Assembly (NCBI GenBank): GCA_029820295.1 | Contig: JALGVA010000002.1 | Span: 1-64,000, forward strand | DNA length: 64,000 nucleotides | DNA from: Candidatus Zipacnadia bacterium | Lineage (GTDB): Bacteria; Armatimonadota; Zipacnadia; Zipacnadales; UBA5352 | Direction of reading: 5' to 3' | Shown here: positions 9,466 through 23,394 of the stretch, in pieces | How the letters are laid out: each line of letters begins with the position of its first letter | How positions within the stretch are numbered: position 1 is the first letter of the stretch | Position numbers and translations under genes: made by a program | Notes under the pieces: generated by a model | The model's input: only the letters and a program-made list of their open reading frames with translations | Databases searched by the model: none | Told to the model about the DNA's origin: nothing

Positions 9466-10317
9466 TCACTCGGGGAGCCGCAGGTCGCAGAGATAGACGG
9501 TCGCCGTCTCGTCCCGTCCGGCGATGAAGGCCAGCTTCGTGCCGTCGGGCGAGATGACGGGACTGCGCACGCCGGTAATGCCGAGTTCCGGCCAGGTGAT
9601 CTGTCGGCTGCTCAGGCGCATGAAGCCCACGCGCGCGTCCTCCTCGGTCCAGCCGGCGGCGAAGACGATCCACTCCGCGCGCGGGCCCCACGCCGGGTCG
9701 GCGTGGCGCAGCACGTCGGTGAGCCGCGTCTCCACGACTTCCTCCCAGCGCCGCGCGGTCATCAGCCAGACCTGGTCGTTCTTGATGATGAGCATGCGCG
9801 CTCCGTCAGGGGAGTAGACGGGGCTCCGCTCGTCGCGGTAGGCGAGCCGCTGGGGCTTGGCCTGCCCGGGGCGCAGGAGGAAGATGCCGGTGCGGTTGTT
9901 GGCGGTGTAGGTGCAGGCGATAGTGCGGCCGTCGGCGGCGATCGACGGCTCGGTCAGGTCCTGGCCTTCATGCAGGCGCCGCGCCGCGGCGTCGCTGGCG
10001 AGGTCACGCAGCCAGATGCCCTCCTCGCCCGGCTCGGTGCCGATCCACACCAGCACGCTGCCGCGCACATCCGGCTGGCGGCCGAGGGCCAGCACCTCGG
10101 GCTCACCGCCGACCAGCGGCAGGCGCACAATCTCGCGGACGAAGGCGGTGGCGTTCAGGCGGCCCACTATCAGCCCCGGGCCACCGGGAGCGTCGGCGCC
10201 GAGGAAGCGGCATGACTCGTAGCCACCGTCGTCCGCCAGCACCTGCGGCACGCCGACCTGCGGCTCGTCCGAGCCCCACGCCAGCGCGGCACCCAGCAGC
10301 ATTGCGGCCGCGGTCAT
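9466..10317 (-). CDS. Secreted TolB/WD40-like beta-propeller protein
   Basis: MTAAAMLLGAALAWG signal; repeated SPDG motifs (SPVYSPDGARMLI, SPVISPDGTKLAFIAG). Confidence 0.8.
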   Translation of the reverse strand: MTAAAMLLGAALAWGSDEPQVGVPQVLADDGGYESCRFLGADAPGGPGLIVGRLNATAFVREIVRLPLVGGEPEVLALGRQPDVRGSVLVWIGTEPGEEGIWLRDLASDAAARRLHEGQDLTEPSIAADGRTIACTYTANNRTGIFLLRPGQAKPQRLAYRDERSPVYSPDGARMLIIKNDQVWLMTARRWEEVVETRLTDVLRHADPAWGPRAEWIVFAAGWTEEDARVGFMRLSSRQITWPELGITGVRSPVISPDGTKLAFIAGRDETATVYLCDLRLPE

Positions 10318-15958: not shown

Positions 15959-16137
15959 AGCTGGTACCCGAGGTCGCTGCAGCGTGGCAGACCACTGCTG
16001 CTGAGCATGTCGCCGGTCCCGGAAAAGCGGGTCCGTTCCGGGGCGGCGCTGGGTCTACGGGCACATGCATCCCGAGACCGTTCGGGGCATGCTTGTGGCA
16101 GACGTGAGCGTGCCAGGTCGCGAACCGGAGGTGCATG

Positions 16138-16470
16138 ATGCTGCGCGAGATCGTTGTGGGAGCGGTCGTGCTGGTGCTGATCGCGGGCTGCCAGCCCAAG
16201 GCCGGGGGCCTGGTGGGGAAGTGGCAGGCGCACGGGGGCGCAAACAGCATCGAGTTCAGCGACGACGGACAAATCACCCAGCACAGGCCCGGGCACATGG
16301 TCATGACGTGGTACCGGATCGAGGGGGACCGGATGACTGTCGGCCACGTGGTGAGCGGGATGCCCGACGAGACTGTGAAGTTCCAGGTGTCAGGCGACAC
16401 GCTGACCATCGGCACCTGCCTCGCCCTGGGCACGATGGGTGCGACGACGTTCACACGCATGGAGGATTAG
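16138..16470 (+). CDS. Small lipoprotein
   Basis: MLREIVVGAVVLVLIAGCQPK lipobox; compact beta-rich domain GLVGKWQAHG... Confidence 0.7.
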   Translation: MLREIVVGAVVLVLIAGCQPKAGGLVGKWQAHGGANSIEFSDDGQITQHRPGHMVMTWYRIEGDRMTVGHVVSGMPDETVKFQVSGDTLTIGTCLALGTMGATTFTRMED

Positions 16471-17132
16471 TGCTCACTCGCGCAAGTTCGGGTGCGAAGG
16501 CTCCGACAGGCGAGGGCGACTGTCGTACGGGTCTGGTCTGTCCTCGATGTGGCGGTGGCCTGCGGGCCGAGATGGTCGGCAGGACGCAGGTGGACGGCTG
16601 TGATGCCTGCGGCGGGCTGTGGTTCGACGCCGATGAGGTGTTCCGCGTGGCGCGGGGTGGCCAGGAGGCAGTCGCCGGCGCCGAGGCGGTGGTCGAGCCG
16701 CCCCCGGCGGGCGCGGGCATGGAGCCGGCGGAGATGGTTTACCCGCGCTGCGACAGCCCACTGTTCGACACCGCGGCCGATCCGTCGGACCTGCACCTTG
16801 AGGTCAACCCGCACGTGGACCACTGCTGCGAGTGCGGTGGCATCTGGCTGGAGCTGGCGGCGCTGTCGGTGCTTGTGGACGTGCCGCTGGAATGGCTGCG
16901 GGAGTGGCAGGCGCGGCTCGATGCCGCCGTCGCCGGGAACGCTATGAAGGCAGCGGGCGAGGCCCTGTGCCCGGTCTGCCAGGTCGCCCTGGATGAACGC
17001 AGCTACGCGCACGACGAGAGCATATGCATCGACCGCTGCACGGAGTGCGGGGGCACGTGGCTCGATCACGGCGAACTGATCGCGGTCAAGCAGGTCTCCA
17101 TCCGGCAGGACGTGTGGGGCAACCGACCCTGA
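16470..17132 (+). CDS. TFIIB-type zinc-ribbon repeat protein (three ribbons)
   Basis: CPRCGGGL..CDACGGLWFD; YPRCDSPL..CCECGGIWLE; CPVCQVAL..CTECGGTWLDHGEL; possible GTG start overlaps preceding TAG. Confidence 0.75.
   Translation: MLTRASSGAKAPTGEGDCRTGLVCPRCGGGLRAEMVGRTQVDGCDACGGLWFDADEVFRVARGGQEAVAGAEAVVEPPPAGAGMEPAEMVYPRCDSPLFDTAADPSDLHLEVNPHVDHCCECGGIWLELAALSVLVDVPLEWLREWQARLDAAVAGNAMKAAGEALCPVCQVALDERSYAHDESICIDRCTECGGTWLDHGELIAVKQVSIRQDVWGNRP
16471..16537. repeat. 67-bp dispersed structured repeat, copy 1
   Basis: 59/67 identical to 23151-23217 by manual alignment, no gaps; begins immediately after a stop codon. Confidence 0.85.
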
Positions 17133-21134: not shown

Positions 21135-21398
21135 GGGCCTCTCTCCTTCGCGACCGCAGTGGCGCAGCGCACGCACACGCAGCTTCGCCATCAGTCTACC
21201 AGACGCCCCGGTTCCAGTGGAATGGGGACGGACCCCAGATTGCGCCCCGCGAAGCACTGAACCGGCGGCGCCTGTGTGTGCCTTCGGGCGAGCCGGCATG
21301 ATTCCTGCAGAGCGGGGAGGGAATGACAGGCGACCGGATGAAGCACACAGTCAGTGCCTGGCCCCGATCCAGGAGATTGTGAACCGACTGCCGGTGCG

Positions 21399-23150
21399 AT
21401 GCTGCGTCAGATTGCGAAGGCGACGGCGCTGATCCTGCTCGCCGCGGTCCTGTTCGCGGCGGGCTGGTTCGTGGGCGCCGGCGGTTGGCCCCGGGAGGGC
21501 GCGCCCTGGTTGGGACTGCAGCGGTTCGGCTGGCTGACCGGCTGGCTCGACCGCAGCGAAGACCGGGCGGACACGGCGTCATTCGCGCCGGCTCGCGTTG
21601 CGTCGCCCGGTGAGGCCAGTCTGCTGTTCGTCGGCGACCTGCTGCCTCTGCAGGATCGAGACTACCTGACACACGCGACGGCACTGATTGCCTCGGCGGA
21701 CCTGGCGGTCGGCAACCTCGAGTGCCCGCTCTCCACGCACGGCCGCCGGGCTGCACTGAAGCTCGACGAGCGTGGGCGCGTGCTGCGCAATGAGTACCTG
21801 TTCCGCGCGCCGCCGTCGCAGGCACAGCGCCTGGCCGACGCCGGCTTCGACGCGCTGACGCTGGCGAACAACCACACCATGGACTTCGGCGGCGAGGCGC
21901 TCCTGGAGACGCTCGCGCAGCTCGACGCCGCCGGCATCGCGCACACCGGCGCCGGACCGGACCGGGCGGCGGCGCGCGAGCCCATCGTCCGCGAGGTCGC
22001 CGGTCAGACGGTCGCGCTGCTGGCCTACGTAAGCGCGGGGACGCTTCCCGGCACCGACGGCTTCGCGGCCACCGACGAGTTGGCCGGGACGGTCTTCGTC
22101 GGCGGCAGCCCCGAAGGAGAGCCCACAGCGACCACGCGGGAGATGCTGCGCAACGACCTGCGCGCCGCCGGCAAGCGCGCGGACTTTGTGGTCGTCGCCT
22201 TCCACTGGGGCACCGAGGGCACCGACGCGCCGGATCCGCTACCGCGCCGGCTCGCCCGCCTGTGCATCGATGCCGGGGCGGACCTGGTCGTGGGGCACCA
22301 TCCGCACAAGCTGCAGGGCATCGAGATCTACCAGGGGCGGCCCATCGCCTACAGCCTGGGGAACTTCGCCTTCCCCACCCCCTGGGAATCCAACCACTTC
22401 AGCGCGGCGCTGGAAGTCCGCATCGAGGGGGGGCAGTGGCGGGAGCTGATCGTGCACCCGGTGCGGCTGCGCTTCCGGGCGGGCGATCCGGCGCCGGCCC
22501 AGGGCGCCGATCTGGACGAGATCGTCCGCCGCGTCACGACGCTCTCCGAGCAGCTCGGCACCGCGTGCGTGTACGAAGAATCCGGCACCGACGCGCGCGT
22601 CATCATCGGCAACCCGTCACCCGCCCGGGCGCGGACCGCTCTGCTCAAGGCGGAAGAGCAGCGCTTCTTCGCCCGGCCGCACTCCGAGCTGGAGGGCATG
22701 AGCACGGTGCACTTCCTTGCGTGGGACCTGCAGGGAGGCGGCGAGAAGGTCTCGATGGAGCGCACCGTGGTGGTGCGGACCACGCTGGCGCCCGAGGTGC
22801 TGGAGATCTTCCGGGAGATCTACCTGTCACCCGAGCGCTTCCCGATCCACGAGGTGATCGGCTACGACTACCGCACGGTGGCCGGGGGCGGCGGGCGGCT
22901 GTCGAACCACGCGCTGGGGCGGGCCATCGACATCAATCGGGCGGAGAACCCGATGATCCAGGATGGCGAGAAGATCGTGCACCCCGACGAGCCGCCCTAC
23001 GTCCCGGGTGAGTGGCGGCCCGGCGAGGACCCCTATTCGATCACTCCGGACGGATCGGTGGTCGCGGCCTTCAAGCGCCGGGGCTGGCACTGGGGCGGCG
23101 ACTGGACAAGCTGCAAGGACTACCAGCACTTCGACAAGCCGGGCGGCTAA
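21399..23150 (+). CDS. CapA-family metallophosphatase fused to M15C D-Ala-D-Ala carboxypeptidase-like domain
   Basis: LLFVGDLLP, VGNLECPLS, LANNHTMDFG, VVVAFHWGTEG, VVGHHPHKLQGIE (CapA); SNHALGRAIDINRAENP...GWHWGGDWTSCKDYQHF (M15C). Confidence 0.88.
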   Translation: MLRQIAKATALILLAAVLFAAGWFVGAGGWPREGAPWLGLQRFGWLTGWLDRSEDRADTASFAPARVASPGEASLLFVGDLLPLQDRDYLTHATALIASADLAVGNLECPLSTHGRRAALKLDERGRVLRNEYLFRAPPSQAQRLADAGFDALTLANNHTMDFGGEALLETLAQLDAAGIAHTGAGPDRAAAREPIVREVAGQTVALLAYVSAGTLPGTDGFAATDELAGTVFVGGSPEGEPTATTREMLRNDLRAAGKRADFVVVAFHWGTEGTDAPDPLPRRLARLCIDAGADLVVGHHPHKLQGIEIYQGRPIAYSLGNFAFPTPWESNHFSAALEVRIEGGQWRELIVHPVRLRFRAGDPAPAQGADLDEIVRRVTTLSEQLGTACVYEESGTDARVIIGNPSPARARTALLKAEEQRFFARPHSELEGMSTVHFLAWDLQGGGEKVSMERTVVVRTTLAPEVLEIFREIYLSPERFPIHEVIGYDYRTVAGGGGRLSNHALGRAIDINRAENPMIQDGEKIVHPDEPPYVPGEWRPGEDPYSITPDGSVVAAFKRRGWHWGGDWTSCKDYQHFDKPGG

Positions 23151-23217
23151 TACTCACTCGCGCAAGTTCCGGTGCGAACGCTCGGGCAGGCGAGGGCGCC
23201 GGTCGCACGGGTCTGGT
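23151..23217. repeat. 67-bp dispersed structured repeat, copy 2
   Basis: 59/67 identical to 16471-16537; begins immediately after TAA stop. Confidence 0.85.
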
Positions 23218-23394
23218 ATGCGAGAAGGGGACGAAAGCCCGTGACGTAGTGCAGACGCCCCCGCCTGCACACGCCGTCGGCACCGACCGTGAATACGTGC
23301 ATTTCCGCAAGCAAGCACCAGCGGCAGGCCCGCCGGTGAAAGGCGGGCTGGACGGCCTCCGTGGTCGTCGCGACGCAGGAAGGTGGGCGAGACG

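Follow-up and report, generated by a model that had tools for sequence, protein, structure and literature searches.

A repeat beside stop codons in a Candidatus Zipacnadia genome is very probably the left end of a 173-bp IS630-type MITE

Introduction

Two similar sequences in a 64,000-nucleotide stretch of a Candidatus Zipacnadia genome (contig JALGVA010000002.1, positions 1 to 64,000; hereafter the window) each begin at the first base after a stop codon. The initial annotation described them as copies of a dispersed 67-bp element able to form a nested helix, and regarded a G-C to C-G double change between them as compensatory. Here we ask what kind of element this is and why it should begin where genes end.

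Results

The repeat is longer than 67 bp and includes the stop codon before it

Realignment reproduced the ungapped 59/67 identity between 16471-16537 and 23151-23217, and both 67-mers are indeed directly preceded by a stop codon (TAG at 16468-16470 and TAA at 23148-23150, respectively). This stop codon is part of the element's own terminal repeat. The repeat widens to 73 nt (16468-16540 and 23148-23220, 86% identical), and no other direct repeat reaching 40 nt was detected between positions 10000 and 30000 of the window. In a BLAST search across its own genome the second window copy scored E = 2.6e-18, so the repeat is not a product of chance; the search also gave a third copy on contig C62 (82%) and a partial copy on contig C254. 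The likeness of the second window copy to other genomic copies runs on beyond 23217, as far as 23320. The repeat was therefore correctly recognised, with borders drawn too narrowly: 73 nt are present in both copies, and copy 2 spans 173 bp. Its dispersed, non-coding character also agrees with the earlier preference for a nucleic-acid element over a peptide.

Copy 2 is full-length and decayed, and copy 1 is truncated. The features of the two copies and of the genes beside them are as follows.

16135-16470, + strand: gene (111 aa) with the insertion TA of copy 1 in its TAG stop; weak DUF5640 match, just under the cut-off
16468-16540, + strand: MITE copy 1, left end only, right side lost at about 16537-16540; aligned with 37 other left ends
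16468-16495, + strand: left TIR of copy 1, which takes in TA 16468-16469 from the TAG stop of the host gene; 20/28 to the IS630 left end, rank 1 of 1516 TA-starting 28-mers in the window
16504-16525, + strand: internal hairpin 1 of copy 1 (CGACAGGCG-AGGG-CGACTGTCG), from RNAalifold and pair counts on 38 copies
16470-17132, + strand: Zn_ribbon_TFIIB ORF (Pfam) downstream of copy 1; this frame stays open across the element, back to the GTG that the element carries at 16470
21354-23150, + strand: gene (598 aa) with PGA_cap and Peptidase_M15_4 domains (Pfam) and the insertion TA of copy 2 in its stop
23148-23320, + strand: MITE copy 2, somewhat decayed but complete at 173 bp, a length shared with many G001 elements; aligned over its whole extent with the C62 copy and 18 G001 elements
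23148-23175, + strand: left TIR of copy 2, including target TA 23148-23149 within the host TAA stop; 17/28 to the IS630 left end on contig C248, rank 2 of 1516 TA-starting 28-mers in the window
23184-23205, + strand: internal hairpin 1 of copy 2 (family consensus CGACAGGCG-AGGG-CGCCYGTCG), from the RNAalifold consensus and pair counts on 38 copies
23249-23270, + strand: internal hairpin 2 of copy 2 (GTGCAGACGCCCCCGCCTGCAC), an inverted unit of the type seen in hairpin 1; read directly and kept in the full-length alignment
23293-23320, - strand: right TIR of copy 2 (minus strand TGGTGCTTGCTTGCGG...), its TA decayed to CA; 2 mismatches to TAGTGCTTACTTGCGG and 19/28 to the IS left end

The two TIRs of copy 2 have decayed relative to each other (15/28), and a search downstream in the window for a right end of copy 1 gave none.

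Full-length copies are numerous in a genome of the same genus

The initial annotation had proposed a search for further copies in this genome and in related MAGs, and such copies were present in both. In addition to those on C62 and C254, one full copy used as query matched dozens of places in G001, a genome of the same genus. One of these (L048:1478-1648) has 28-nt inverted arms that are 75% complementary. A scan of 60 G001 regions with the end sequences identified 36 elements in which both ends, left and right, were present, along with single ends; many of the 36 measured exactly 173 bp. Across G001, TAGTGCTTACTTGCGG with at most 3 mismatches occurred 76 times, versus 13 times for a reversed control, and the copies lay in both orientations relative to the gene ending at them. 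The copies in the window's genome (G000) look old, and G001 had a larger burst.

Related arrangements were also seen. A second G001 family of about 250 bp has similar ends (TAGTGCTGAGTTGCAGAAGTGGGCGC... and ...CTTCCGCAAGTAAGCACTA) and a different inside (L209:1207-1462, L233:658-913, L262:1206-1460 and others). In longer variants of the MITE, at L212 (a 237-bp element), L128 and L168, the loop of hairpin 2 holds nested palindromes (GGAGTTTGCTCAGCAAACTCC, AGGTCGCGGAGCGACCT) that look like insertions of further small repeats. In another genome, G002, the hairpin core AGGCGAGGGCGCCTGTCGTAC was found at 64 places, compared with none for the reversed control; MITE ends were absent at these sites (loci L323-L332), and the cores often formed inverted pairs about 25 nt apart, in a REPIN-like manner.

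An intact IS630-family element in the same genome has matching ends

Contig C248 of the window's genome contains two inward-facing ends with the TIR TAGTGCTTACTTGC, which span 1128 bp (CTAGTGCTTACTTGCAT... and ...TTGCAAGTAAGCACTAG) and enclose an intact gene for a 365-aa transposase. This protein was placed in the IS630 family by NCBIfam NF033545 (249.6 bits, cut-off 100) and matched Pfam DDE_3 (81.9 bits, cut-off 28.6) as well as HTH domains; a PDB sequence search with it gave no match. The closest named relative of this IS lies in a Candidatus Zipacnadia MAG. The same perfect ends bound a relative from another family of the order, whose transposase is 84% identical, and IS remnants in further genomes retain similar ones.

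When the 1516 TA-starting 28-mers of the window were compared with the left end of the IS, the left ends of copy 1 and copy 2 were the top two matches (20/28 and 17/28; mean 8.4). The ends of the G001 MITEs averaged 19-20/28 against the same background of 8.4, with a strong likeness over the outer 14 bp that lessens further in. An intact transposase of this type was not found in G001, the genome richest in copies, whose MAG is 86% complete and in 850 contigs. By direct reading, an apparent C-terminal remnant of an IS630 transposase abuts a MITE left end on contig C186 of the window's genome (about 117150-117200, L177), with the TA shared between them.

Insertion occurs at TA, and at gene ends restores the stop codon

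The target of the element was assessed on 21 G001 elements with TA on both sides. CTAG was the target in 15/21, versus 10/815 of the other TA sites in the same regions. Gene calls at the element ends were made by a simple codon score and not by annotation, and on this basis 36/53 gene-facing ends, or 36/89 of all ends, coincided with a gene end at offset 0. Since random placement at TA sites would by itself give a TAG resembling a gene end in 30% of ends, this raw count was dropped as sole evidence in favour of a test of the codon restored once the element is removed. For the 24 cases in which a coding frame ended exactly at the terminal TAG of the element, removal in silico restored TAG or TAA in 21 and gave TAT or TAC in 3, whereas only 19/559 in-frame TA sites (3.4%) belong to a stop codon (Fisher p about 1e-24).

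These data account for the position of the repeat. Because the element starts with G directly after the duplicated TA, a gene interrupted in the TA of its TAG or TAA stop keeps an in-frame TAG, and the element consequently appears to begin after a stop codon. The expectation that copies follow stop codons thus holds, and its cause lies in the TA/CTAG target of a transposon.

Two separate observations concern target sequences. The element at L233:658-913 lies between two convergent coding frames, for both of which its two ends give the stop codon; its empty site would read TTAG, in which the stops TAG and TAA overlap. The tetranucleotide CTAG has zero occurrences in the whole 64-kb window.

Genes at the two window copies

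Orthologues of the gene that ends at copy 2 were present without the element in G001, G003, G004, G007, G030 and G032, where TAG occupies the same position, and in G009, where TGA does. As these orthologues end at the same place in the absence of the element, the stop is a natural one and the sites are empty sites. For copy 1, a search for an empty site via the Zn-ribbon protein gave distant homologues only, with no close orthologue among them. A contig of G005 (C76) was considered as the same insertion in another genus and was rejected, since over kilobases it matches the window at 98.7-99.9% identity and G005 possesses a separate orthologue of the neighbouring gene, 64% identical. Judged from these identities, C76 most likely entered the G005 assembly as contamination from the window's species.

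At copy 1, the GTG of the element stands in the context TA-GTG, with GGAGG just upstream, and is in frame with the Zn_ribbon_TFIIB ORF. The GTG frame is free of stops in 39/39 family-A left ends. Judging by this reading frame, the truncated copy may now supply the 5' end, and hence the N-terminus, of the Zn_ribbon_TFIIB ORF.

Structured RNA, REP-type repeats and random truncation as alternatives

A structured RNA or cis-regulatory element of 3' untranslated regions, kept for its nested helix, would be in keeping with the pairs described in the initial annotation, all of which form in both window copies (24/24 cells). Tests on 38 aligned left ends gave a different picture: the outer pairs were kept in 95.8% of cells, but the inner helix paired in 57.5%, and over the whole nested helix neither pairing (73.5% versus a shuffled mean of 73.4%) nor the covariation score (0.095 versus 0.094) rose above chance. 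Double changes were found at 2 pairs versus 2.1 expected, and the G-C to C-G change, previously read as compensatory, was carried by 1/38 sequences, so the helix can form and yet is not a supported structure. Fold stability of the window 67-mers resembled that of shuffles (z of -0.15 and -0.44, with +0.42 for a third copy), and Rfam returned no match in the window and, for the first copies, no relevant hit at E up to 5. The 38 copies do share a conserved internal hairpin, for which RNAalifold instead proposed hairpin 1 as listed above (90% of cells paired, no double-sided changes), partly overlapping the 3' arm of the outer helix. Together with the occurrence of copies in both orientations to the gene, the TIRs, the TA/CTAG target and the empty orthologous sites, these results make a conserved RNA highly improbable.

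Dispersed hairpins could also be REP/REPIN-type palindromes spread by a RAYT (Y1) transposase, and the 64 hairpin cores of G002, lacking MITE ends and often in inverted pairs about 25 nt apart, fit such a description. By contrast, the elements of G000 and G001 have long TIRs and empty sites, recur at 173 bp and target TA/CTAG, and the G002 units represent a different arrangement; we therefore give this origin very little credence for the window repeat. It is similarly hard to believe that the element truncates genes by random TA insertion, its terminal TAG merely mimicking a natural stop. The 30% of ends that would then look like gene ends is close to the 36/89 seen, but truncation of this kind would yield TAG or TAA upon removal in 3.4% of cases, as opposed to 21/24, and the orthologues of the copy 2 host gene end at the same position.

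Discussion

Taken together, these analyses make it very probable that the repeat is the left end of a 173-bp non-coding MITE of the IS630 / Tc1-mariner type. What is observed corresponds to such an element: a full-length, non-coding repeat of defined length and high copy number, bounded by TIRs that match those of an intact IS, with a TA/CTAG target, TA duplication, restoration of stop codons and, for copy 2, empty sites. According to the proposed mechanism, the TIRs (TAGTGCTTACTTGC...), which resemble the ends of the IS630-family IS in the same genome, would be bound by the C248 transposase or a similar one, which would move the MITE in trans by cut and paste, with TA dinucleotides, and CTAG in particular, as its targets. 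Such mobilisation by an IS630-type transposase is suggested by analogy with ISY100, for which cut and paste in vitro requires the transposase alone (PMC2170065). Copies at gene ends lie overwhelmingly in TAG or TAA stops, where the in-frame TAG is kept and insertion should be harmless; most copies now seen would be those that landed harmlessly, and this harmlessness probably explains their survival. A bolder proposal, which we consider rather unlikely, is that the G-first TIR and CTAG targeting together constitute a stop-codon-preserving transposon on either strand, able to keep both stops of convergent genes as at L233, beyond CTAG preference plus purifying selection, and that dozens of genes then have this shared 173-bp module at work at their 3' ends.

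Identification of the repeat as a MITE replaces a possible RNA motif with a mobile element that has a simple siting rule. With a TA/CTAG target and G as its first base, a transposon can spread through a genome dense in genes and leave them unbroken, and the rule lends itself to counting wherever a genome has IS630-type MITEs. A caution also follows, in that a sequence that always follows a stop codon and is able to pair can mimic an RNA element of 3' untranslated regions. A literature search, of incomplete coverage and hence weak as evidence, found neither a report of MITEs for Armatimonadetes nor one joining IS630, a stop codon and a regenerated target.

Several known systems share parts of this arrangement. 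REP/REPIN elements are likewise dispersed hairpins, and the internal hairpin of the MITE resembles the units in G002. To our knowledge, REPs lack long TIRs, a fixed 173-bp length and a TA/CTAG target. IS630 and ISY100 insert into TA and duplicate it (PMC2170065), as the MITE does, and a preference of IS630 for CTAG is credited to Tenzen and Ohtsubo (1991), as cited in PMC2170065; unlike the MITE, whose inside is unrelated to the transposase gene, they carry that gene themselves. The BOX elements of S. pneumoniae resemble the MITE in supplying stop codons at the 3' ends of genes (36/58 overlapping CDSs; PMC3049150), and differ by their modular boxA-B-C structure and kinship to another IS; no CTAG target is described for them in the account consulted. 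A parallel in kind is RUP of S. pneumoniae, a 107-bp element with 108 copies, TIRs matching those of IS630-Spn1 and insertion at TA, which is thought to be moved in trans (PMC2229807). RUP and IS630-Spn1 form the same kind of arrangement as the present MITE and IS630-type IS; compared by description, RUP differs in host lineage, length and TIR, and it is described as favouring IS elements, whereas the gene-end copies of the MITE lie in stop codons. The arrangement is therefore already known in its RUP-like form, and the stop-codon niche seen here is unusually clear and countable.
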